This document shows, piece by piece, positions 12,161 to 24,249 of a stretch of 64,000 nucleotides of DNA. The stretch lies in the NCBI RefSeq assembly GCF_025822765.1, contig NZ_JACKUK010000023.1, positions 453,535 through 517,534 on the forward strand, written 5' to 3'. The notes under the pieces are model-generated. The model made no database searches, was not told the DNA's origin, and saw nothing but the letters and a program-made list of their open reading frames with translations. Position 1 is the stretch's first letter; each line of letters begins with the position of its first letter. Made by a program: the position numbers and the translations under genes. Source of the stretch: Mycobacterium barrassiae (lineage in GTDB: Bacteria; Actinomycetota; Actinomycetes; Mycobacteriales; Mycobacteriaceae).

Positions 12161-12856
12161 CAGGATAGCGGCATCGGCGTGCTGGACAAAGCCGTGGGCG
12201 TGCTTCACGCGATCGCCGAGTCCCCATGCGGGCTCGCCGAGTTGTGTGAACGCACCGGGCTACCGCGTGCCACCGCGCATCGGCTGGCCGCGGGTCTGGA
12301 AGTGCACCGGCTGTTGACCCGTAACGGAGACGGCCGATGGCGGCTCGGACCTGGGCTCACCGAGTTGGCGGCACAGGTCAACGATCCACTGCTGGCTGCC
12401 GGTGCCGTCGTCCTTCCCCGCCTCCGCGAGATCACCGGCGAAAGCGTTCAGCTGTACCGCCGCGAAGGCACCTCACGCATCTGTATCGCCGCCCTCGAAC
12501 CACCTGCAGGGCTAAGGGATACCGTTCCGGTCGGCACGAGACTGCCGATGACGGCGGGCTCGGGGGCCAAGGTGCTGCTCGCCCACGCCGACGTCGCCAC
12601 CCAGCAGGCCGTGCTGCCTGCGGCGAAATTCACCGACCGAACCCTGGCCGAGGTACGCAAACGCGGCTGGGCGCAGAGCGCCGCCGAACGCGAGCCCGGC
12701 GTGGCGAGTGTTTCTGCGCCGGTGCGTGATGCGCACGGCGCGGTGATCGCGGCGGTGTCGGTGTCCGGCCCGATCGACCGGATGGGCCGGCGCCCTGGAG
12801 CGAGATGGGCCGCCGATCTCTTGGCCGCGGCCGAAGCGCTCACGCGTCGCCTGTAA
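12155..12856 (+). CDS. IclR-family regulator of leucine biosynthesis (LtbR/NdgR type)
   Basis: 233 residues from GTG 12155. The N-terminal winged helix-turn-helix ([26 protein letters not shown], about 25-50) is followed by an IclR effector domain ([51 protein letters not shown]). Divergence from leuCD, conserved across actinobacteria, indicates that it controls leucine genes. The gene may start at the transcript 5' end, as no Shine-Dalgarno is evident. Its 3' end overlaps the convergent SulP gene by 17 bp. Confidence 0.92.
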
Positions 12857-14555
12857 AGGGTTTTCGGACATCTGACCGCTGCCGAAACGCCTCCACAGCG
12901 GTCGGCAGCGTCATGAAGATTCGGTGTTCGCCGATTTTTTCCAGCAGACCCGCGGCGCCAAGCGCCTGCCGCAGATCCTGTTTGACCCGCGCCATCGCGA
13001 ACACGACGCCGCGACGCGCGAGATCCTCGCGGAGCTGCTCGAGCGCATCGAGCGCAGTGAGATCGACTTCGACATTCGCTTCGGCGTTCAGCACGAACCA
13101 CTCGACGGGTCCGTCGTTTTCAGTTACGGCCGCCAGTGCTCGGCGCCGGAAGTCCTGTGCGTTCGCAAAGCACAGCGGGGCGTCGTACCTGTAGATCATG
13201 AGACCGGGTATCGAGGTGGCCTCCGGGTAGTCCTCGATGTCGTGCATCCCGGGGATGCCGGGAACGAAGCCGAGGACGCTGTCATGGGCGTGCGCGACGC
13301 GGCGAAGCAGATCCAGGATGGAAAGGGCGACCGCTGCGAGCACCCCGTACAGCACACCGACACCGAGTACGGCTGCGGCGGTTGCCACCGCCAGGATCAA
13401 CTCGCTTCGGCGGAATCGCGCGAGCCGGCGGTACTCACCGACATCGATCAGCCGGCACGCGGCGAACACGACCAAGGCCCCCAGCGCGACAGTCGGAAAT
13501 TGCGCCAGCACACCTCTTCCCCACAACAGCACCGCAAGGACGGTCACCACCACGACCATCGAGCACAACTGGGTGCGGCTGCCAACGGCATCTCCGACCG
13601 CGGTGCGGGACGCGCTCGAACTCACCGGAAATCCGTGTGTCAAACCCACGCCGAGGTTGGCGGCCCCGAGCGCACGCAGTTCGGCATTGGCGTCGATCTC
13701 CTCGCCCTCGCGAGCCGCGAACGCACGCGCAGTCAACACATTGTCGGAAAAGGCGACGATCGCAATTCCGACCGCAGGAAGAATCAGGGCAACGACATCG
13801 CCGGGATCCACGCGAGGCACCCCCAGCGTCGGCCAGCCACTCGGGATCGCACCGACCACGCTGATTCCATTGGCCTGCAACGACAGCAGTGCCACCGCCG
13901 CCGCAGCCGCGAGCACCGCGATCAACGGTCCTGGCGCTCGTGGCACCCACCGTCCGAGACCTTCCAACAGCAGAAGAACGCCGACGGCAAGCACGATCGT
14001 CGGCCAATGGACGTCGTCGACGTTGGTGATGAACGAGCGAATCAGTTCGATGAAGTCACCACCTTCGACTGTGGTGCCTGTGACCTTGCCGAGTTGGCTG
14101 GCGATCATCAGCAGCGCGATGCCCGTCATGTAGCCGACGAGCACGGGTTTGGACAACATGTTGGCCAGAAACCCCAACCGCGCGAGCGCCGCCATGAAAG
14201 ATATGGCGCCGACGAGGATCGCCAGCAGCGCCGCGAGCATCGCGTACCGCCCGCTGTCACCGAGGGCGAGCGGCGCGAGAACGGCAACCGTCATCAACGC
14301 GGTGGTCGATTCGGGCCCGACTGAAAGCTTGCGCGACGAGCCGATGAGGACGTAGACCACCAGCGCAACCGCCGCGACCCACAATCCGACGACAGCGGGC
14401 AGACCCGCCAGCGTCGCATAGGCCATCACCTGCGGAACAAGGTAAGCCGTGACGGTCAGTCCCGCGATCACATCGCCACGCAGCCAGGCGCGCTCGTAAT
14501 TCCGGAACTGCGCGACGCCCGGCGCCCAGTCTCTGAAGCTCCGCAGGTTCCCCAT
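12840..14555 (-). CDS. SulP-family anion transporter with C-terminal STAS domain
   Basis: 571 residues from ATG 14555. The N-terminal SulP signature WLRGDVIAGLTVTAYLVPQVMAYATLAGLP leads into about ten to twelve membrane segments (residues 25-430). A cytoplasmic STAS domain follows (about 455-555). SulP proteins move sulfate, bicarbonate or other anions; the substrate cannot be read from sequence. It diverges from the 31-residue membrane protein/universal-stress-protein genes across a 469-bp region with DosR-like boxes, which suggests it belongs to the same regulon. Convergent overlap with the IclR gene. Confidence 0.92.
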   Translation of the reverse strand: MGNLRSFRDWAPGVAQFRNYERAWLRGDVIAGLTVTAYLVPQVMAYATLAGLPAVVGLWVAAVALVVYVLIGSSRKLSVGPESTTALMTVAVLAPLALGDSGRYAMLAALLAILVGAISFMAALARLGFLANMLSKPVLVGYMTGIALLMIASQLGKVTGTTVEGGDFIELIRSFITNVDDVHWPTIVLAVGVLLLLEGLGRWVPRAPGPLIAVLAAAAAVALLSLQANGISVVGAIPSGWPTLGVPRVDPGDVVALILPAVGIAIVAFSDNVLTARAFAAREGEEIDANAELRALGAANLGVGLTHGFPVSSSASRTAVGDAVGSRTQLCSMVVVVTVLAVLLWGRGVLAQFPTVALGALVVFAACRLIDVGEYRRLARFRRSELILAVATAAAVLGVGVLYGVLAAVALSILDLLRRVAHAHDSVLGFVPGIPGMHDIEDYPEATSIPGLMIYRYDAPLCFANAQDFRRRALAAVTENDGPVEWFVLNAEANVEVDLTALDALEQLREDLARRGVVFAMARVKQDLRQALGAAGLLEKIGEHRIFMTLPTAVEAFRQRSDVRKPFTGDA

Positions 14556-14664
14556 GGTGTGAGTCAGTGTCTCCCGAACGGTGCTGTCACGAGCAGGACG
14601 CTACCGATCTGTGCCGGTCAGCGGCACCCACCGCGCACGGTTGGTGACCTTCGGCCGTTGCCGA

Positions 14665-14678
14665 GGGACCTACGACCC
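14665..14678. promoter_or_regulatory. DosR/DevR-like box upstream of the SulP gene
   Basis: GGGACCTACGACCC matches 11 of 14 core positions of the M. tuberculosis DosR consensus (GGGACTWWAGTCCC). It lies 110 bp upstream of the SulP start on its coding side. Candidate only; the distance allows a promoter in between. Confidence 0.4.
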
Positions 14679-14938
14679 GGTCCGAAAGACGCCACAGCTG
14701 AATACCGTTGACGCACCAACGCCGAATGGACAGGAGCACGGGAGGCGACGGCGGGCCGGGTCACGAATCGATGGTCGAGCAGCAATCGGGGAGCGCCGCT
14801 TCGCCAGGCGCCAGTCCCGATGTTGGGTAGCACAACCGATTTGGACCGCATCGTCGTGCTCATCGTGCGAAGAAGGGCAGCCGGCTGACTTCCGCGGTTT
14901 GACCGCACCGCCGCTTGCCGCAGATTACCGTTCGATCG

Positions 14939-14974
14939 GGGACGACAGACACCGCGTGAAGGGACCAACGGCCC
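14939..14974. promoter_or_regulatory. tandem DosR/DevR-like boxes upstream of the microprotein/USP operon
   Basis: Box 1 at 14939-14952 (GGGACGACAGACAC, 10/14 core matches) and box 2 at 14961-14974 (GGGACCAACGGCCC, 11/14) are 22 bp apart start to start. That is two helical turns, the spacing used for cooperative DevR binding in M. tuberculosis dormancy promoters. They end 50 bp upstream of the ATG at 15025. The downstream genes encode universal stress proteins, a hallmark DosR-regulon class. Confidence 0.6.
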
Positions 14975-15024
14975 TGCCTAACGTCTTCGGCCGACCGTAA
15001 CGTCGGCCGAAAAGGAGGCTCGTT

Positions 15025-15120
15025 ATGGATTGGCCCACTGCCGCAGTATTGATCGCTGTTGTCATCGCCGTCATGACGATTTTGACCACCTATATCAACG
15101 GCCGCTATTCCAAGAAGTAG
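15025..15120 (+). CDS. 31-residue single-pass membrane protein
   Basis: A 32-codon gene with an excellent AAGGAGG Shine-Dalgarno 7 nt upstream of ATG 15025. The protein begins MDWPTAAVLI, continues as an uninterrupted hydrophobic stretch of about 18 residues (AAVLIAVVIAVMTILTTY), and ends in the basic tail NGRYSKK. This fits a single transmembrane helix with a cytoplasmic positive C-terminus. It lies 11 nt before the first universal stress protein gene and under the tandem DosR-like boxes, so it is probably the first cistron of that operon. I do not recognise a family; a role as a membrane microprotein partner is inference. Confidence 0.75.
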   Translation: MDWPTAAVLIAVVIAVMTILTTYINGRYSKK

Positions 15121-15131
15121 GAGGAATGACG

Positions 15132-16028
15132 ATGAGCCAGAGTTCCCCGAAGTACGGGATCCTTGTCGGAGTCGATGGGTCGCCCGAATCGGAGGCGGCC
15201 ATCCGATGGGCCACCCATGAGGCCGTCATGCGTGACCAGCCGATCACCCTGTTGCACGCCATCCCGCCTGTCGTCGTCAGCTGGCCCGTCGCGTATCTGG
15301 AAACGAGCTTCGCCGAGTCGCAGGAGAATTTCGCCCGCGAGGTTCTCGACAAAGCGCAGAAGACGGTCCAGGCAAGCATCGGAGAAGCTCAGCCCCCGGA
15401 AGTTCGATCCGAGGTCATGCATATCGACGCCCCCTCAGCGATGGTGACAGCGTCGCGCGACGCGTATATGACGGTGGCCGGCAGTAGGGGGCTCGGCGCG
15501 ATCGGGCGCACGATTCTGGGCTCGGTCAGTAGCGGTTTACTCCACCACGGGTATGGGCCGATCGTGATCATTCCCTCCGACCAGGCTCCTGCGCCCCACG
15601 GCTCCGCACCCGTTCTTCTCGGTGTCGACGGCTCCCCCGCATCCGAGGATGCGACGGCCCTGGCGTTCGACGAGGCGTCCCGAAGGGGCGTCGATCTGGT
15701 CGCCTTGCACGCATGGAGTGATGTCGGCGTCTTGCCGGTCCTCGGAATGGACTGGCACAAGTACGAAGACGAGGGACACGAGGTATTGGCTGAACGCCTC
15801 GCGGGATGGCAGGAGCAGTACCCGGATGTGCGTATCCACCGCCGGATCGTCTGCGACCAGCCCGCACGATGGCTCATCGAGGAGTCTGAAAAGGCTCAGC
15901 TCGTGGTGATCGGCAGCCACGGTCGCGGCGGCTTCGCCGGTATGCTGCTCGGCTCGGTCAGCTCGAAGGTGGCGCAGGGGTCGAAGGCCCCTGTGATCGT
16001 CGTCCGCGCCCGGCGTGATTCGAAATGA
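15132..16028 (+). CDS. universal stress protein, tandem UspA domains
   Basis: 298 residues from ATG 15132. The AGGAGG at 15119-15124 is correctly spaced (7 nt) for this ATG but too close to the one at 15126. Two UspA domains are present; each has the ATP-binding motif G-2x-G-9x-G-S: GSRGLGAIGRTILGSVSSG (first) and GSHGRGGFAGMLLGSVSS (second), and each opens with LVGVDGSPESEAAIRWA-type strands. This is the architecture of the DosR-induced Rv2005c/Rv2623 group, where ATP binding is linked to growth arrest. Its stop overlaps the next start by 4 nt (ATGA), so the two Usp proteins are translationally coupled. Confidence 0.93.
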   Translation: MSQSSPKYGILVGVDGSPESEAAIRWATHEAVMRDQPITLLHAIPPVVVSWPVAYLETSFAESQENFAREVLDKAQKTVQASIGEAQPPEVRSEVMHIDAPSAMVTASRDAYMTVAGSRGLGAIGRTILGSVSSGLLHHGYGPIVIIPSDQAPAPHGSAPVLLGVDGSPASEDATALAFDEASRRGVDLVALHAWSDVGVLPVLGMDWHKYEDEGHEVLAERLAGWQEQYPDVRIHRRIVCDQPARWLIEESEKAQLVVIGSHGRGGFAGMLLGSVSSKVAQGSKAPVIVVRARRDSK

Positions 16029-16900
16029 CGGACACCACGAGGCCCATCGTCGTCGGCGTCGACGGTAGCGACGCAGCGATGTCGGCGGCGATATGGGCGG
16101 CCGCGGTAGCGCTGAAATTCGAGGTTCCGCTCGAGTTGGTCAGTGGCGCACCTGAAGCCGGTCACCTGCTGACCGACGCCGCCATGGCCATCCGGGCCGC
16201 CGCGCTCGCCGAGCATCACGAGCAGGCGGCCGCGCTGCTCAAATCGACCGAGGAACAGGTGCGCGCCGCGGCGCCCGGGCTCGAGGTGACCACGCTGCGA
16301 TCCGATGAGCCTGCCGACGCCCTGCTGATTTCACGCAGCCGCTCCGCCCGATTCGTGGTTCTCGGCGCCGGGGCGATATCGCCTGCGGCCGCTCTGCTGG
16401 TCGGGTCGACAACCCTTGCCGTAACGGCACATTCGGCATGTCCGGTGGTGGTGTGGCGCGGTGACAGTGACGTGCCCACGAAGAAGCCCATCGTGCTCGG
16501 AGTGGACGGGGAGCGGACGGGCGCGGTCGCGTTTGAAACTGCTTTCGAGTTGGCGAGCAGATTCGACGTCGAGTTGAGGGCCGTCCACGCCTGGCCGTCG
16601 GTTCGGCCGCCGGCGTGGGTCACCGAGCCGTTGCTGACCGATTGGGACGGTCTCGAGAGCCTTGAGTGGGCAAAGCTTCTCAACATTCTCGAGCCGTGGA
16701 CCGCGCGCTATCCGGACGTGAAGGTGACGAACTACATCGAACCGGATGGACCTGCCAAGGTTCTCCTGCGGCATGCGGCCGATTCGCAGCTTGTCATCGT
16801 GGGCAGCCGGAAGCGCACTCTGCTGGCGGCGACGCTGGTGGGCTCCACCGGGCTCAATCTCTTGCATCACTGCCCAACCCCGGTCGTCATCTGTCATTGA
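16025..16900 (+). CDS. universal stress protein, tandem domains with degenerate ATP-binding loops
   Basis: 291 residues from ATG 16025, overlapping the preceding gene by ATGA. Two Usp folds are visible ([37 protein letters not shown]), but the nucleotide loops are altered: GAGAISPAAALLVGST in the first domain and GSRKRTLLAATLVGST in the second. Neither keeps the G-2x-G that precedes the nine-residue spacer in its partner. It may not bind ATP and may act as a heterodimer partner of the coupled upstream Usp; that is inference. Convergent with the next Usp gene across 10 nt. Confidence 0.88.
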   Translation: MTDTTRPIVVGVDGSDAAMSAAIWAAAVALKFEVPLELVSGAPEAGHLLTDAAMAIRAAALAEHHEQAAALLKSTEEQVRAAAPGLEVTTLRSDEPADALLISRSRSARFVVLGAGAISPAAALLVGSTTLAVTAHSACPVVVWRGDSDVPTKKPIVLGVDGERTGAVAFETAFELASRFDVELRAVHAWPSVRPPAWVTEPLLTDWDGLESLEWAKLLNILEPWTARYPDVKVTNYIEPDGPAKVLLRHAADSQLVIVGSRKRTLLAATLVGSTGLNLLHHCPTPVVICH

Positions 16901-16910
16901 CGACCGGGCG

Positions 16911-17780
16911 TCATGAACGAGCGACGATCACCGGAATCTGCGCTGCTTGCACAACCGCGGTGCTCACCGAACCCAACAACGTGCTCGCGACGGCTCCGTG
17001 TCCGTGGCTGCCGACGACGATCATCTGCGGCGGTCCGGGGTAGTCGACCAGACGCAGCGCCGGTTGATCCCGAACAACCACCCTGCGCACGACGACATCG
17101 GAATAGCGGTCTTGCCACGCGGCCAGCCGCTCAGCGAACTGTTGGTCGACCTCGATGCGCAGATTCTCCCAGTCGAGGGTGAATTCGAACGCCCCCGAAC
17201 CCCACCACGCGTGCAGCGCCACCAATTCGACTCCACGTCGGGATGCTTCCTCGAAGGCCAGCGAGGTGGCCGCCGCCGCCGAGGGCGAGAGATCGCAGCC
17301 GAGCAGAACCGGCCCGTCGACATTTGGCGTTTCCTCGCGGATGACGGCCACCGGGCACCGCGCATGGTGCACCAGACCCATGCTCACCGAACCAAGCAAT
17401 GCGCGTGCGAGTCGTCCCCGACCTCGGTTGCCCACCACCACCATTTCGGCATGCTGTGACATCTCGACCAGCGCCGGCACCGCGGTCGCGCGAAGCAGTT
17501 CGGTCGAAATCTGCAGTGCCCCATCTGAGGCCCCATTCGCAGCGTCCGTCGCCACCGAGACAGCCTCGTCGAGGATCTGCCGGCCCAGGTCGTTCTGCCA
17601 ACTCAACACGTCGGGTGGCACCGGTGTTGCCAGCCAGGTGCCGACCACCGGCGCAATGGCATGGACGATGGTCAGGCGCGTGTCACGCAGGCGGGCATCA
17701 TGTGCGGCCCATCGAAGGGCCGCCTCGGCCGAAGGTGAACCGTCAACGGCGACAACGACGCCTGCCTCGCCGGTGCTCAC
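16911..17780 (-). CDS. universal stress protein, tandem UspA domains
   Basis: 289 residues from GTG 17780. Both domains keep the ATP-binding loop: [19 protein letters not shown] and [18 protein letters not shown]; the N-terminus reads [20 protein letters not shown]. The start overlaps the stop of the DUF1918 gene by 4 nt (GTGA), so it is the last cistron of a minus-strand operon of kinase/ATPase, wax-ester synthase, DUF1918 and Usp. That operon starts at the DosR-like boxes near 21.0 kb. Probable role: ATP-sensing stress/dormancy protein in the cytoplasm. Confidence 0.93.
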
Positions 17781-18025
17781 GTGCGCTGGCCGTGGATGTC
17801 GGCGTGATGGCCAGCGCGTTCCTCGGCAGCTCGTTGCTCAGCAGCCGTGACGATGACCGCGTCGGGCCCGGGAAACACAGTCGCCGTGTGGTCATTGTCG
17901 AGCCATCGGACGACGTAGGGTGGCGAGCCGTCATCGGAATGCACTTCAGTGATCAGTCCGCGTCGCTCGGGATGGTCGATAGTGAGGCCTTTGGTCACAA
18001 GCCAATCCCCGACTTCGGCTTTCAT
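17777..18025 (-). CDS. DUF1918 protein
   Basis: 82 residues from ATG 18025, chosen for its GGAGGGAGAT Shine-Dalgarno immediately upstream; an earlier in-frame start at 18046 lacks one. The N-terminal 60 residues ([49 protein letters not shown]) form the small beta-barrel-like DUF1918 domain of unknown function, common in mycobacteria beside stress genes. A short charged tail follows. It is coupled by GTGA overlap to the Usp gene downstream. Confidence 0.88.
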
Positions 18026-18059
18026 ATCTCCCTCCTCATCAATCAAGGCATCAGATCAA

Positions 18060-19418
18060 TCACACCAAGTCGATCAATTCGTCGATTCCCTGCTCGATTC
18101 CGCGTGCGAGTTCGTCCACATCGGGCGCGGCGTCGTAATCCGCCGTGATACCGAAGGTGAGTTCATCGGCGTAGCTCACGATCGCCACGCCGGTGCGGAG
18201 GTTCAGGGCGATCGGCGGAATCGGCATCATCCGTAGGACTTCGCGGTCCAAGATTCGGAGTCGGTGGCGTGGCCCGGGGACGTTGGTGGCCAGCGTCACG
18301 ACACCATGCTGCGGGAGTTTGGTGAGCGCGCGAACGGTCCACGCGGTCAACGCGAACGGCACCATGTTGACGGCCGCAACGAATGCGCTCCCCGCCTCAC
18401 GCTGTCCGCTGGACTTTGCCCGCGTCAACCGTTTGTGCACCGTCTGCAGCCGGTCGACGGGGTCCTCGCGGTCCACTGGGAGGAAGGGCAGCATCACGGA
18501 GACCCGGTTATCCGTGATGTCCATCTCGTCGTTCGACCGCACGGACACAGGCACCAGCGTCCGCAATGAGTTCCGCTTCGGCGGCGTGCCCCGACGGATC
18601 AGCGCGGCCCGGTAGCTGGCTGAGATCGCCGACAACGCAACGTCGTTCAGCGTCACATCAAATGCATCCTGTATTTTCGCGACATCCCGAAGGCTCACTC
18701 GCGCAGCGCTGTAACGCCGCATGGTTGTCACGGGGCCAACGAGTGGTGAGTCGGCGGCCGGACTCAAGATTGCGCTGGCGATCTTCACCGCACCTCCGAC
18801 CGCCAGCTCCGCACTGGCCGCTGCCTCAGTAGCGAGACTCCAGGTGGCGCGCGCCCAATCCAAGGGATTCAGACTCAGTTTGAAGGAAGCGTCCTGCTTC
18901 GCGGGCACCTGCTTGGCAGCCCGGATCTCCGTCGCGAAGGTTTCGCCCTTGCCCCCGTCGGCGAGCCCGGACAGCATGTGCATGGTCGTGATTCCGTCCG
19001 CAATGCAGTGGTGGATCTTGAGCAGCATCGCCCATTGTCCGCCCGAGAGGCCCTCGATGATCCAGCATTCCCACAGTGGGTGGTCACGATCCAACCGCCG
19101 TTCCATGATGTCGGCGGTCAGCCGGAACAACTCATTGTCGCTTCCGGGCGCGGGTACAGCGATGTGATGAATATGGTGGGAGAGATCGATATCCGGCGCG
19201 TCCTCCCATTCCGGCGGTTGAAGATCGAGCAGGTGAGTCCGAAGTACCTGCCTCATCCTGGGCACTGCGGTCGCTCTCTCCAAAACGGCCGCCGCCAGAG
19301 TTTCGAATTCTGGGATCGGGCCCTCCAGCACCGATAGGCCGCCGATCGCAAGGCTGATGTGGGGGTCGGCGTCCTCCGCTTCGAGAAAGCCCGCATCAAG
19401 GGGGGTCAATCGCTCCAC
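18060..19418 (-). CDS. wax ester synthase / diacylglycerol O-acyltransferase (WS/DGAT, Tgs family)
   Basis: 452 residues from GTG 19418, with a GAGG 6-8 nt upstream. The acyltransferase motif HHCIADG (HHxxxDG) is at residues 136-142, the N-terminus has the family opening RLTPLDAGFLEAED and the C-terminal half contains NVPGPRHRL, another conserved block. These membrane-associated enzymes make triacylglycerol or wax esters from acyl-CoA; several are DosR-controlled in M. tuberculosis (Tgs1). It lies 38 nt after the kinase/ATPase gene and 34 nt before DUF1918 in one operon, consistent with lipid storage during growth arrest. Confidence 0.93.
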   Translation of the reverse strand: MERLTPLDAGFLEAEDADPHISLAIGGLSVLEGPIPEFETLAAAVLERATAVPRMRQVLRTHLLDLQPPEWEDAPDIDLSHHIHHIAVPAPGSDNELFRLTADIMERRLDRDHPLWECWIIEGLSGGQWAMLLKIHHCIADGITTMHMLSGLADGGKGETFATEIRAAKQVPAKQDASFKLSLNPLDWARATWSLATEAAASAELAVGGAVKIASAILSPAADSPLVGPVTTMRRYSAARVSLRDVAKIQDAFDVTLNDVALSAISASYRAALIRRGTPPKRNSLRTLVPVSVRSNDEMDITDNRVSVMLPFLPVDREDPVDRLQTVHKRLTRAKSSGQREAGSAFVAAVNMVPFALTAWTVRALTKLPQHGVVTLATNVPGPRHRLRILDREVLRMMPIPPIALNLRTGVAIVSYADELTFGITADYDAAPDVDELARGIEQGIDELIDLV

Positions 19419-19456
19419 TGCTGCCTCACTCTCCGTACGCCCGTGCAATACCGAAG

Positions 19457-20950
19457 TCAGAACTGCAAGCAACAGATCTCGAGCGCCTCCGTGACTGAGT
19501 CGGCCACTGGCCGACTGGTATCCAAGCGATGCCCGCCCGGCCACCCCTGGCTTTCCTCGGCCAGCTCGACCGCGATCGCAGGCGTGGCGTCGGATGTCGA
19601 CTCCGGCCTGGACGCAACCCGCGCCGACGCCTCGTCTGCCGGAATCGAGCAGGTGAATTCGGAGAACGGGGCCGCGGCGTCGGCCGCGATGCGGCGCGCC
19701 CGTTCTCGCTGCCCTGTATCGCGCCACGTTCCGTCAAGGATGACCGACACACCACGCTGGAGCAGAACACTCGCGCGCCGCAGAACTTCGTCGTACACGG
19801 CAGCCACATTGCGCGGGTCGTAGAGGCCGGCGTTGAGGCTGCCCGGTTCGCCGCCGATGGCACCGCTCTGCTGCAGTTCGCGGCGGACGTCGTCGGTTGA
19901 GATCACCTGGGCACGAATCTGTTCCGCGAGCCCGCGGGCCACGGTGGTCTTACCCGTTCCGGGGCCGCCGCCGATGAGCAGAAGTCTGACGACGCCCGCT
20001 CTCAGGTGATCAAGCGCGATGTCGAAATGTCGTTGCGCATCCACGCCCGCGGCGGGGTGCCCTTGTGCCACACGCACACAATCGACCTTGGCGCGGACAA
20101 CCGCACGGTATGCGATGTAGAAGTCCACGAGCGACTCGGGCGCCGTCTCCCCCGCGGCTCGGCGGTATGCCGCGAGGAAGTGGGTCGCCAGCTCGGGGCG
20201 GCCCAGGAACTCGAGGTCCATCGCGAGGAACGCAGCATCATCGATACCGTCGATGAATCGGAGCGTGTCGTCGAACTCCATGCAATCGAGGATCGCCAAC
20301 TCGCCTGGCGGGCAGAAGATGTCGTCGGCGAGGAGATCGCCGTGCCCGTCGACGACCCTGCCGTCTGCCACACGCTGGGCGAACAACGGCGCACGGCCCG
20401 CGACAAACGACGTGACCAGCTGACGTACTTCAGTGATCTTGTCCGCTGCAATCACCCCGTGGCGTTCGAGTTCGCGCAGGTTCTGTTCCCACCGAGCAGT
20501 GATGGCGTCTGGGCCGGCCTGCTGCGCGATCGCTTCACTGCGAACCGCATCGCGATGAAACCGTGCGAGCGTATCGGCGATGGCCGTCAACTGCTCGTGC
20601 ACGGGCTCACCGTTTCTGACCTTCCAGGACAGCCGATGGTGGTCGCCGTAGCGACGCATCACCACCACCGGTTCCGCCAGTCCTCCGGACGGCCCCACGA
20701 AGTGTGCGACACCGAGGTAACTGTTCGGTGCCAGTCTGCTGTTGAGCGCGACTTCACGTTCGCACACGCTTTCCCGTTGCTCGACGGTCGTGAAGTCGAG
20801 GAAATCCGTGGCGATCGGCTTCTTCGCCTTGTAAGCCTTGTCCCCCAGCAGCATGACGACGCCCGTGTGCGTCTCGTGGACCTCCGCAGCGAAGTTGCCG
20901 GCCACAGTCCAGGGCTCGCGGATCTCATCGGACATCGTCATGGCATCCAT
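19457..20950 (-). CDS. two-domain protein: APH-like kinase fold plus P-loop ATPase (Rv2004c-like)
   Basis: 497 residues from ATG 20950 (ATGs at 20941 and 20935 are also in frame; none has a clear Shine-Dalgarno). The N-terminal part resembles aminoglycoside phosphotransferase-type kinases, with a Brenner-like DGHGDLLADDIF and a following ILDCMEFDD metal motif. The C-terminal part has the Walker A GGGPGTGKTT (Lys about 334) of the zeta-toxin/gluconate-kinase-like ATPases, then VISTDDVRREL. The same combination occurs in M. tuberculosis Rv2004c, a DosR-regulon gene of unknown function. It diverges from the acg-like gene across a 106-bp region with two DosR-like boxes. Confidence 0.88.
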   Translation of the reverse strand: MDAMTMSDEIREPWTVAGNFAAEVHETHTGVVMLLGDKAYKAKKPIATDFLDFTTVEQRESVCEREVALNSRLAPNSYLGVAHFVGPSGGLAEPVVVMRRYGDHHRLSWKVRNGEPVHEQLTAIADTLARFHRDAVRSEAIAQQAGPDAITARWEQNLRELERHGVIAADKITEVRQLVTSFVAGRAPLFAQRVADGRVVDGHGDLLADDIFCPPGELAILDCMEFDDTLRFIDGIDDAAFLAMDLEFLGRPELATHFLAAYRRAAGETAPESLVDFYIAYRAVVRAKVDCVRVAQGHPAAGVDAQRHFDIALDHLRAGVVRLLLIGGGPGTGKTTVARGLAEQIRAQVISTDDVRRELQQSGAIGGEPGSLNAGLYDPRNVAAVYDEVLRRASVLLQRGVSVILDGTWRDTGQRERARRIAADAAAPFSEFTCSIPADEASARVASRPESTSDATPAIAVELAEESQGWPGGHRLDTSRPVADSVTEALEICCLQF

Positions 20951-20986
20951 GGTTCACATCATGGGCGTGCTGACCGTCGCTTTCCA

Positions 20987-21021
20987 GGGTATTAAGACCC
21001 GCTCCTCGGGACCATTGACCC
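20987..21021. promoter_or_regulatory. tandem DosR/DevR-like boxes in the acg/kinase divergent promoter
   Basis: Box at 20987-21000 (GGGTATTAAGACCC) and box at 21008-21021 (GGGACCATTGACCC, preceded by CTC) each match 11 of 14 core positions of the DosR consensus and are 21 bp apart, on the same DNA face. They sit between the divergent starts at 20950 and 21057, and acg of M. tuberculosis is itself controlled by DosR boxes. A single site pair could drive both the acg-devR transcript and the four-gene minus-strand operon. Confidence 0.68.
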
Positions 21022-21056
21022 TGGTGACACGCGGTCTTGCGGCGGAAACTGAGAGC

Positions 21057-22061
21057 ATGCGCGACACCGTGGTGGACACCCGAATCCTCAAGCAGGCCGT
21101 ACAGCTGGCCTGCCGCGCGCCGTCGCTGCACAACAGCCAGCCCTGGCGCTGGGTGGTCGATGGGAGCGTCGACGGGAGCACGGTGATGCTGTACCTCGAC
21201 CGGAACCGGGTCTTGCACGCCACCGACCACACGGGTGCGGAGGCGCTACTCGGCTGCGGCGCTGCCCTCGACCACTTCCGCGTGGTGATGGCCGCGGCCG
21301 GCTGGGTGGCGCATGTCGAGCGCTTCCCGAATCCCAACAACCGGATGCATCTGGCATCGATCGAGTTCAGTCCCATGGAATACGTGACCGACGGGCACCG
21401 CGCCCTCGCGGACGCCATACTCCGTCGGCGAACCGACCGACTGCCGTTCGGCCCGCCGCACAACTGGGAGTCGGTCTCGGTCGCGCTCCAACGAGCCGTC
21501 ACGAGTGACGCCGTGCGCCTCGACGAGGTCTCAGACGAACTGCGCAATGAATTGGCGCAGGCATCGGACATCGCCGAATCACTCCGCGTCTACGACTCGG
21601 CCTACCAATCCGAACTCGATTGGTGGACAGGGCTTTTCGAATCCACCCAGGGTATTCCGCATAGTTCGCTGGTATCAGCTTCCGAAAGCGATCGTGTCGA
21701 GATAGGCCGCCACTTTCCAGTCACCCCCACCAGCGAACGGCGTCCTCAGTTGGCTCGTGACCAGGCCACGATCCTCGTGTTGTCGACATATGACACCGAC
21801 CGCACCAGTGTGCTCGAGTGCGGAGAGATGCTGTCTGCCGTCCTCCTCGAGGCCACCGTGGCCGGCCTGGCCACGTGCACGCTGACCAACATCACGGAGT
21901 TGTGGCCCGGACGCGACGTGGTGGCGTCGCTGATCGGGCAGACGACGACGCCGCAGGTCATCATCCGCGTCGGGCAGGCGCCAGGCTTGGAGGAGTTGCC
22001 GCCCCCGACGCCACGGCGGCCGATCGATGAGGTCCTCGAGGTGCGCTCCCACCACCAATGA
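21057..22061 (+). CDS. acg: Acg-family nitroreductase-fold protein
   Basis: 334 residues from ATG 21057, close in length and sequence to M. tuberculosis Acg (Rv2032) as I recall it: [22 protein letters not shown] near the N-terminus, [47 protein letters not shown] and the end [14 protein letters not shown]. Acg proteins are dimer-domain nitroreductase relatives that bind and sequester FMN rather than reduce nitro compounds. They are induced by hypoxia and NO through DosR. The frame stays open upstream to 20838 but that overlaps the divergent gene. devR follows on the same strand. Confidence 0.92.
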
Positions 22062-22213
22062 TCAGTAGGAGGTGCAGAATGCACCGCGACCTGGTGGCGG
22101 CGGACCCTCGGGATCGTGTCGCACCATCCGCCGAGCACAACGGGTTGTTCTGTGCCCCTTCGCCGTCCCCGGTCAGTATGGTGGCGGGCACGAGCGCGGA
22201 GGAGGGACTTGCC

Positions 22214-22864
22214 ATGGTCAGAGTCTTTCTCGTCGACGACCATGAGGTGGTGCGCCGCGGGCTGATCGACCTGCTGAATTCCGACCCCGAACTCGAGGTG
22301 GTCGGCGAGGCGGACTCGGTCGCCCACGCGATGGCGCGGATCCCCGCGCTGAAACCTGACGTCGCGGTGCTCGACGTGCGGTTGCCCGACGGCAACGGCA
22401 TCGAACTCTGTCGCGACCTCCTGTCCAGGCTGCCCGATCTCCGGTGCCTGATGCTGACGTCGTTCACCTCGGACGAGGCGATGCTGGACGCCATACTGGC
22501 CGGCGCCAGCGGATACGTCGTCAAAGACATCAAGGGCATGGAACTGGCGCGAGCAGTCAAGGAAGTCGGCGCGGGCCGCTCTCTGCTCGACAACCGCGCT
22601 GCGGCGGCGCTGATGGCAAAGCTGCGCGGCGCCGCCGACAAGTCCGACCCCCTGTCGGGACTCAGCGACCAGGAGCGGGTCCTGCTGGACCTGCTGGGCG
22701 AAGGCCTCACGAACAAGCAGATCGCCGCGCGAATGTTCCTCGCCGAAAAAACGGTAAAGAACTATGTGTCACGGCTATTGGCCAAACTCGGCATGGAACG
22801 CCGCACCCAGGCGGCGGTGTTCGTGTCGAAATTGAACCAATCCCGCGCGCACGCCGAGGAGTAG
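22214..22864 (+). CDS. devR: DevR/DosR paralogue, NarL-type response regulator (orphan)
   Basis: 216 residues from ATG 22214, nearly the length of M. tuberculosis DevR. The receiver domain has D8/D9 and phosphoacceptor D54 ([10 protein letters not shown]), T82 and K104. The LuxR-type HTH ([10 protein letters not shown]-like block, about 162-190) keeps K179, K182 and N183, the residues that contact DNA in DevR. It should therefore read the same GGGACT-type boxes. No DevS-like kinase is in the window. A second in-frame ATG at 22079, with a strong GGAGG, would add 45 residues; 22214 is preferred by homology. It lies behind acg, hence probably autoregulated. Confidence 0.93.
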
Positions 22865-22914
22865 TCGTTCCGCGCCGGCCCGCGGTCAATCCCTCACCGG
22901 CACAGGGACTTCGG

Positions 22915-23805
22915 TCAGCTGCCCCGCGCCACGATCACCGGCATACGCGCTGCCTGCGCGACGGCCGAGCTGACCGAACCCAGGAGCAGTCCCGCGAACC
23001 CACCGCGGCCACGGCTGCCTACGACCAACAGTTGCGCTTTCTCGGACTCCTCGACGAGCCGATGCGCCGGATTGCCCTGTTCGACAACCCGTCGGACAAC
23101 GACGTCCGGGTACTGCTCGCAATAGCCCGCCAACCGCTGAGCGAGTTCCTCGTCAGCCTGCGTCACCACCTCGTCGGGCAGGATGTCGAGGGGAAAGTCT
23201 GCGAAGTTCATCCAGGTGTGAACCGCGACCAATTCGACTCCTCGACGGCTGGCCTCGTCGAACGCGATCGCCGTCGCCAGCTCTGAAGCCGGCGACCCGT
23301 CCACACCGACCACGACGGGCGCGGCGCTCGGGTAGTCCATCAACGGATCCTCGTCGTGGATGACGGCCACCGGGCAGTGCGCATGGTGGAGAACGCCGGA
23401 GCTGACCGAACCGAGCAACAGTCCCGCCACTCCACCCAAACCGCGGCAGCCAACCACGACCAGCTCGGCGCCCTTGGACATCTCCACCAGCACCGACACC
23501 ACGTTGCCGGGCACGACGCGGTGGTCGACGGCGAGCTTCGGCTCGTCAGCCGTCGCGTCGAACACGAGCTTCAGCGCGTCGTCGATGACCTCTTGCGCGC
23601 GTTGCTCGCGTTCTTCGGCGTAATACGGGACATCGACGAAGGGACCGAACTCCGCCGGCGGAACGACTGTCACCACCGTCAGCGGCACATGGCGAAGCGC
23701 CGCCTCACGCGCCGCCCAGTCGGTCGCCACACGTGATGCGGGTGAGCCGTCGACGCCCACCACAATGCCGTGGCCCTTGAGCTTCGGATCTGACTTAGCG
23801 GACAT
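22915..23805 (-). CDS. universal stress protein, tandem UspA domains
   Basis: 296 residues from ATG 23805, preceded by GAGGAG. Open frame continues upstream to 23892 without a good start. Both Usp domains carry intact ATP loops ([37 protein letters not shown]). The second strand set begins [35 protein letters not shown], shared with the Usp encoded at 15132. Convergent with devR across 50 bp. A DosR-like box lies about 100 bp upstream. A Usp next to devR recalls Rv3134c-devR-devS, although here the orientation is convergent. Confidence 0.93.
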
Positions 23806-23907
23806 TTCGTTCTCCTCGTCGCCGTGGCACGTTGCTGAATCACACGACTGATCGGAGATTAACGTCGCAAACGACCTGACCTCAGGAGGCATTCGTCCTG
23901 TACGGAA

Positions 23908-23921
23908 TGGTCAAAAGTCCC
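23908..23921 (-). promoter_or_regulatory. DosR/DevR-like box upstream of the fourth USP gene
   Basis: Read on the minus strand, GGGACTTTTGACCA matches 11 of 14 core positions of the DosR consensus and has the preferred GGGACT start. It is 103 bp upstream of the Usp ATG at 23805. A weaker half-conserved copy (GGCGTGTTAGTCGC, 9/14) begins 20 bp further upstream at 23928-23941, so this may also be a tandem site. Confidence 0.5.
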
Positions 23922-23969
23922 GCGATGGCGACTAACACGCCTAGGAGCGGCGCTGTTGAGGTGAAGACG

Positions 23970-23994: not shown

Positions 23995-24009
23995 GTGCCG
24001 CGATATTTG

Positions 24010-24082
24010 TACCCCCGATGGGATTCGAACCCACGCTACCGCCGTGAGAGGGCGGCGTCCTAGGCCGCTAGACGACGGGGGC
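24010..24082 (-). tRNA. tRNA-Glu (CTC)
   Basis: 73 nt. Read on the minus strand it folds into a cloverleaf: acceptor GCCCCCG with CGGGGGT, anticodon stem CCGCC/GGCGG enclosing loop CTCTCAC with anticodon CTC, and T-arm GTGGGTTCGAATCCCAT. The first acceptor pair is G-U. CCA is not encoded. It reads GAG codons and lies near gltX, the synthetase that charges it. Confidence 0.95.
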
Positions 24083-24174: not shown

Positions 24175-24249
24175 TGGCTGGGGTACCAGGACTCGAACCT
24201 AGAATGGCTGAACCAGAATCAGCTGTGTTGCCAATTACACCATACCCCA
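24175..24249 (-). tRNA. tRNA-Gln (CTG)
   Basis: 75 nt including an encoded CCA (24175-24177). Acceptor TGGGGTA pairs with TACCCCA, with discriminator G; the anticodon arm GCTGA-TTCTGGT-TCAGC has anticodon CTG, and the T-arm is CTAGGTTCGAGTCCTGG. Mycobacteria make Gln-tRNA by amidation of Glu-tRNA(Gln), so this tRNA connects gltX here with gatCAB at 40.7-45.2 kb. Confidence 0.96.

Follow-up and report, generated by a model that had tools for sequence, protein, structure and literature searches.

The 64,000-nucleotide stretch of Mycobacterium barrassiae DNA analysed here (G000:C23:453535-517534, hereafter the window, from a 5.90-Mb genome in 49 contigs) contains an island of genes built around devR/dosR, which encodes a DevR-type response regulator. 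We give a probability of about 0.8 to the reading that this regulator belongs to an ordinary hypoxia/nitric oxide (NO) DevS-DevR pair that has been physically split, the block in the window carrying the single DevR of the genome and part of its DosR regulon. A preliminary description of the window had taken the protein for an orphan DevR paralogue, a regulator without its sensor, that would receive cross-talk from a distant kinase or answer to a different input. Neither label fits the genome as a whole: no other DevR was found in it, and the same contig carries, outside the window, a gene for a DosT-type DevS.

The window DevR comprises a REC domain and a LuxR-type helix-turn-helix domain, and aligns without a gap over 212 residues to M. 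tuberculosis DevR (3c3w, 385.8 bits). Residues D8, D9, D54, T82, K104, K179, K182 and N183 are present, including the six from D54 onwards that had been listed beforehand. A longer reading frame starting at 22058 was rejected, the family match beginning at M53, which corresponds to 22214. When the protein was searched against its own genome, 41 matches were obtained: itself at 100%, a next full-length match at 37% identity (123 bits), and a handful of short, partial ones at 38–40%; no second DevR was found in this search. Identity to many mycobacterial DevR proteins is 83–98%, and the window DevR groups with these rather than with the unrelated NarL regulators that the preliminary description had considered.

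The devS gene is located at G000:C23:808290-809999, 332 kb from devR. Using DevS of M. persicum (L030) as query against the whole genome, seven matches were found, none of which falls within the 64-kb window, in agreement with the earlier remark that no DevS/DosT-like kinase is encoded there. A single match is full-length (C23:808296-809939, minus strand, 463.9 bits, residues 17 to 573 of 576); the remaining six score at most 52 bits, are confined to the C-terminal part and start at residue 276 at the earliest. The distant DevS has a GAF-GAF-HisKA_3-HATPase_c domain order and keeps three key residues, H147 (haem histidine), Y169 (distal tyrosine) and H388 (phospho-histidine). The best match of its GAF-A domain is 2vzw, which we take to be DosT, with 263.6 bits compared with 220–224 bits for DevS structures. 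Seven GAF-A residues are conserved differently in DosS and DosT, with the substitutions listed in the excerpted text of PMC4082495; at the positions equivalent to DosS E87, H89, D90, H97, V108, L118 and T169, the distant DevS has G, R, G, E, R, R and N, the DosT-type residue at 7 of 7 sites. The same excerpt describes M. smegmatis DosS as closer to DosT and as an O2-binding form that resists autoxidation. Because both the GAF-A match and the seven discriminating residues are of DosT type, the input of the kinase is likely the ordinary one, falling O2 (or NO or carbon monoxide), read in the manner of DosT.

The genes around devS encode a KASIII-like protein, a phosphoribosyltransferase/erythromycin-esterase-domain fusion, Rv2632c-like and pyridoxamine-oxidase-like proteins, a [NiFe]-hydrogenase large subunit with a diaphorase-like subunit, two wax ester synthase/diacylglycerol acyltransferases (WS/DGAT), two tandem-domain universal stress proteins (Usp), a trehalose-phosphatase/GH65 protein, PfkB, PPDK, a nitroreductase-family (Acg-like) protein and a ferredoxin. 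This cluster appears to form the second half of a DosR-type regulon. In the proposed mechanism, DevS would respond to low O2 or NO through its GAF-A haem by autophosphorylation at the HisKA_3 histidine H388, the phosphate would pass from there to D54 of DevR, and DevR would bind candidate boxes in the island (in front of Rv2004c/acg and of the Usp operon) and in the devS cluster, switching both on.

Co-occurrence of the two genes was assessed in a genus sample of 158 genomes, with a DevR threshold of E <= 1e-85. DevR is present in 141 of them, as one copy in 96, two in 37 and three in 8 (counted by hand). Both devR and devS are found in 140 genomes and neither in 16, which leaves two mismatched cases, G048 with devR only and G008 (70% complete) with devS only. 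The genomes with neither gene at these thresholds include G014, G055, G136, G148 and G151, which have completeness values of 99–100%. Linkage could be read in 56 single-match genomes in which both places were among the matches listed: devS follows devR in tandem in 36, the two genes are on the same strand 2.3–3.8 kb apart in 3, and they are divergent, far apart or on different contigs in 17, the source genome included (hand count). Adjacency, which is lacking in the window, is usual in the genus and not universal. An even wider split was seen in G026, a single contig on which the single devR and single devS are 1.6 Mb apart (C1:1526978 and C1:3126984).

The island extends from the iclR stop codon (12856), which the end of the SulP gene overlaps by 17 bases, to the 3' end of tRNA-Glu (24009). 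Its features are listed below in their order from iclR to gltX, with some identities to the near relative G039 and to G145 and G124, which are sister genomes.

12840..14555, minus strand: SulP-family anion transporter with STAS domain at the left end of the island (PF00916, PF01740, TIGR00815); 92% identical to the copy in the G039 block, 71% to the devS-side SulP of G145/G124
14662..14681: candidate DosR box upstream of the Usp operon; 12.6 bits, exact match to GGGACNNNNGNCCC
14958..14977: candidate DosR box about 50 bp upstream of the 31-residue reading frame and UspA; 15.4 bits, second-best in the window, exact pattern match
15025..15120, plus strand: hydrophobic open reading frame (ORF) of 31 residues between the candidate box and UspA; no Pfam match
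15126..16028, plus strand: UspA, tandem-domain universal stress protein (PF00582, two stretches); 89% to G039, 78% to G124
16025..16900, plus strand: UspB, tandem-domain universal stress protein (PF00582, two stretches)
16911..17780, minus strand: UspC, tandem-domain universal stress protein (PF00582, two stretches)
17777..18025, minus strand: DUF1918 protein upstream of UspC (PF08940, 93.2 bits)
18060..19418, minus strand: WS/DGAT triacylglycerol synthase family protein, GTG start at 19418 (TIGR02946, 411 bits against a cut-off of 310)
19457..20950, minus strand: AAA_33 kinase/ATPase (PF13671), presumably of the Rv2004c type and called Rv2004c-like here
20984..21003: candidate DosR box 1 of a tandem pair in the Rv2004c-acg promoter; 13.9 bits
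21005..21024: candidate DosR box 2 of this pair; 16.8 bits, best in the window
21057..22061, plus strand: Acg-family flavin mononucleotide (FMN)-binding oxidoreductase of Rv3131 type, ATG at 21057 (NF047509 Rv3131_FMN_oxido, 314.7 bits against a cut-off of 199)
22214..22864, plus strand: devR/dosR, the sole copy found in the genome
22915..23805, minus strand: UspD, tandem-domain universal stress protein at the right end of the island, ATG at 23805 (PF00582, two stretches, 200 bits)
23905..23924: weaker candidate DosR box upstream of UspD; 8.6 bits, within the chance range
24009..24082, minus strand: tRNA-Glu(CTC), whose 3' end is the right junction of the island (ARAGORN)
24175..24249, minus strand: tRNA-Gln(CTG), adjoining tRNA-Glu, upstream of gltX (ARAGORN)

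The family matches identify SulP, four Usp, WS/DGAT, Rv2004c-like, Acg and DevR and bear out the gene content given in the preliminary description, and its limits for the island were good; the two small genes, the 31-residue ORF and the DUF1918 gene, had been missed. An ORF at 14581-15000 was discarded as spurious, having no Pfam or NCBIfam family match and overlapping candidate boxes. A DNA search for SulP among 60 genomes showed only that the closest copy is in G039.

Candidate DosR boxes were scored with a position weight matrix (PWM), seeded with the M. tuberculosis consensus and refined over successive rounds on 39 sites from 18 Rv2004c-acg promoters, all from relatives other than G039 and none from the window. 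The sites at 21005, 14958, 20984 and 14662 rank first, second, third and fifth in the window, the fourth lying inside a Usp gene, so that four of the five best matches are within the 1046 bp of island intergenic DNA. Five window sites reach at least 12 bits, compared with 1.1 expected. In the 52-kb devS region, 7 sites reach at least 14 bits, where shuffled versions of the window yield 0.125 per 64 kb; with a PWM made from the M. tuberculosis consensus alone, three sites of this region reach that score. The sites at 14958 and 14662, as well as those of the devS cluster, are independent of the training set. The divergent pairing of Rv2004c-like and acg genes was seen in 20 loci, and the 21-bp tandem spacing of the 20984 and 21005 boxes recurs in L009/L155 (one genome), L154, L167, L168 and L172; six of the 20 promoters have a single site under the expression used. 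PMC6448022 gives similarly shaped DosR motifs for M. smegmatis. Sequence, synteny and candidate boxes together support the earlier view of a DosR-regulon-type island around a true DevR.

Several observations weigh against the reading as a split DevS-DevR regulon. The trained PWM yields no excess at 6.5 bits (22 sites against 27), and two of the four good island sites (20984 and 21005) lie in the orthologue of the region on which it was trained. Seven of the 20 Rv2004c-acg promoters have no site under the expression used. With the PWM from the M. tuberculosis consensus alone, the window has 7 sites against 4.7 at 10 bits or more and 1 against 1.2 at 12 bits or more, the two best being outside the island, and a loose pattern allowing 2 mismatches is rarer in the window than in shuffles (318 against 500). 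Finally, an overlooked second devR copy is conceivable in a 49-contig assembly (completeness 99.98), and the distant DevS may not be the sole kinase that acts on DevR. Evidence for boxes in the window is moderate and PWM-dependent, and Usp genes are widespread (21 domain matches in the genome), as would suit island genes that lie outside DevR control and merely share a hot spot beside tRNA genes. We consider such a chance neighbourhood improbable, as the Rv2004c-acg pair recurs beside devR in many of the mycobacterial loci examined, in some of them with tandem boxes.

The island is an insertion between iclR and the tRNA-Glu/tRNA-Gln-gltX segment. In 10 relatives chosen for the search, the iclR-gltX gap was taken from match coordinates: it measures 351–457 bp in eight (G145, G124, G137, G011, G066, G132, G143 and G079), 2.5 kb in G122 and 12.2 kb in G039. 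The latter carries the same block in the same place, with a single devR that is 98% identical and a single devS 473 kb away. At the eight short sites, the stretch following iclR reaches tRNA-Glu within about 10–140 bp, and in the window the island splits this stretch, separating the iclR stop from the 3' end of tRNA-Glu. The exact tRNA-Glu string is found at all eight short sites and the tRNA-Gln string at six. No integrase was matched among the island proteins scanned against Pfam/NCBIfam, and no direct repeat of the tRNA end was seen by eye in the sequences of the left junction, so that site-specific integration is not demonstrated.

The lineage of the regulator was examined in trees of DevR homologues only. 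The preliminary description had asked whether the window devR is the orthologue of a second M. smegmatis DosR paralogue or an independent copy. In the excerpt of PMC6898941, MSMEG_5244 is named dosR1 for its closeness to dosS and MSMEG_3944 is dosR2. In a search of 396 genomes of the genus, M. smegmatis itself did not turn up; the DosS GAF-B domain gave two matches, G349 (90%) and G077 (88%). Two devR copies each are present in G349, G077, G158 (M. peregrinum, locus L016) and G161 (M. canariasense, L020). In a first devR tree, 14 duplicate rows were merged; a careful DNA tree kept 87 of 91 rows, leaving out L061_1, L184_2, L026_1 and L023_1. The latter places the window devR in a 17-row clade (support 94/94) that also contains the second copy from each of the four genomes and, from M. 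stellerae, M. novocastrense and M. pyrenivorans, devR genes that are unlinked; no row of this clade is in tandem with devS. The inner node that unites the window devR with the four second copies is weak (46/25), and the second copies of G162, G095, G056, G083, G155 and G009 fall elsewhere in the first devR tree. In the approximately unbiased (AU) test, the data weakly reject a group of the window devR with the devS-linked first copies of G349 and G077 (p-AU 0.035) and do not reject one with three of the second copies (p 0.18). Given this clade and these AU results, the window devR is probably DosR2-like, in a genome that would lack DosR1. The resemblance extends to gene neighbourhood, as Rv2004c-acg also lies beside the second copy in G077 and G161 (L211, L213). 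Unlike the dosR2 of the PMC6898941 excerpt, the window gene is the sole copy found, with no devS-linked dosR1.

A kinase tree (79 of 82 rows kept, L061, L012 and L026 left out) places the source DevS in a 26-row clade (SH-aLRT, an approximate likelihood-ratio test, 88) in which every kinase carries the label unlinked or divergent and which contains none of the 49 tandem rows. Linkage labels in both trees rest on fetched flanks, some of just 1.5 kb; L192, L194 and L195 are labelled 'none' and L190 'noR' despite a nearby devS or devR partner, all four being outside the 17-row and 26-row clades. An orphan paralogue fed by cross-talk or by a different input would agree with the absence of a kinase from the window and with a devR clade that holds second copies of the M. 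smegmatis group, two of which have a kinase of another type nearby. We nevertheless regard it as highly improbable, as the window DevR is the only one found in its genome, the sole full-length DevS falls in a clade without tandem members, and the two genes occur together in 140 of the 158 genomes of the sample.

The second copies just mentioned have a neighbourhood of their own. In L209 (G349:C1:4354000-4373900, at 9.8-12.5 kb) and L211 (G077:C1:1854000-1873900, at 9.7-14.8 kb), a divergent-type DevS with 45–47% identity to M. persicum DevS is encoded on the opposite strand less than 3 kb from the second devR. Given this proximity, DosR2 may have its own kinase in G349 and G077. A devR-devS locus was also seen on contig CAMCWJ010000075.1 (L012), labelled as a Bifidobacterium breve metagenome-assembled genome; its devR falls inside the mycobacteria and the contig was probably mis-binned.

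The block may have reached its present site in two ways. G145 and G124 each have a single supercluster of 58–63 kb with SulP-devS at one end and acg2-Usp at the other; UspA-UspB, UspC and Rv2004c-acg-Usp-devR-Usp lie in it between hyp86 and acg2. For the genes common to both, order and orientation agree with the window block, which differs in having WS/DGAT and SulP and in lacking the Usp gene between acg and devR. In G000 and G039, acg2 directly follows hyp86 and the equivalent block is absent there; the native block has thus either changed place or been lost, with an equivalent one arriving instead. Ancestors probably had devR and devS in one supercluster. In the G000/G039 lineage, the devR block is gone from it, and a block that keeps the order of the shared genes lies between iclR and tRNA-Glu/tRNA-Gln-gltX.

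Trees of the individual genes (for all but devR and devS, at most 60 best matches per gene) disagree with one another. Those of acg (support 95), UspA (92, G124 only) and SulP (89, 6 rows) join the window and G039 with G145 and/or G124; those of devR, Rv2004c and UspB place the window and G039 away from G145 and G124, and those of UspC and UspD give no decision either way. The devS tree joins all four genomes at 99. The latter contrast would suit a regulator swap, in which horizontal transfer from another mycobacterium brought in the tRNA-Glu block, the native devR block disappeared, and the resident DevS has come to drive a foreign DevR of DosR2 type. Insertion at a tRNA 3' end fits such an event, as does the median ratio of distance to G145 over distance to G039, which is 3.7 for block genes against 2.3 for devS-cluster genes (Mann-Whitney p 0.004). 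This ratio test is biased, because core genes also show ratios of 2.2–6.5 and some best matches in G145 (WSDGAT, UspD) are not orthologues. The swap is further opposed by the acg, UspA and SulP trees, by an AU test that does not reject a vertical devR clade (p 0.27), by the conserved gene order of the missing native block, and by the lack of an integrase match and of a visible tRNA-end repeat. Horizontal transfer is thus not cleanly proven, and we find the swap somewhat unlikely; a natural rewiring in which a DosR2-type block entered, the native devR module was deleted and the old DevS was kept, so that kinase and regulator would have different histories, is unlikely. A move of the block from the ancestral supercluster is slightly favoured over a foreign replacement.

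The system is a known one in a split, relocated form, of moderate evolutionary interest. It resembles DosR/DosS/DosT (DevR/DevS) in the residues and gapless alignment of DevR, in the domain order, haem histidine and phospho-histidine of DevS, and in the Acg, Rv2004c-like, WS/DGAT, Usp, Rv2632c-like and PfkB genes spread here over two clusters. It differs in the distance between devR and devS, in the insertion of the devR block beside tRNA-Glu, and in having one kinase, of DosT type. The OsdK/OsdR system of Streptomyces coelicolor, as described in part of PMC5069765, also has a DevR-type regulator in a Usp-rich locus, and its kinase is said there to have a second cognate regulator encoded by an orphan gene, a further likeness to the window; SCO0203/SCO0204 are described as a pair, whereas the sole pair here is unlinked. 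An excerpt of PMC11876180 reports that a second kinase of M. avium did not replace DosS. No split devR/devS arrangement appeared in the titles and abstracts of the literature searched, although a 2011 comparative dormancy-regulon study may already have it, and the excerpts of PMC8125079, PMC13393426 and PMC10034137 hold nothing on dosR2 or split loci.

A sensor missing from a 64-kb view need not imply a new input. In a group of mycobacterial genomes, devR and devS are divergent or lie tens or hundreds of kilobases apart, and annotating such unlinked devR genes as orphans would mislead. The lineage offers a clean natural case, with the empty site, the occupied site and the intact supercluster in close relatives, and is suited to asking whether a two-component pair survives the loss of linkage.

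Within the devS cluster, the phosphoribosyltransferase/erythromycin-esterase-domain fusion gene (L096:14883-16928, G000:C23:812882-814927) adjoins the Rv2632c-like gene and has a strong candidate DosR box beside it at 815294. The same fusion is present in the devS clusters of G039, G145, G124 and G068.

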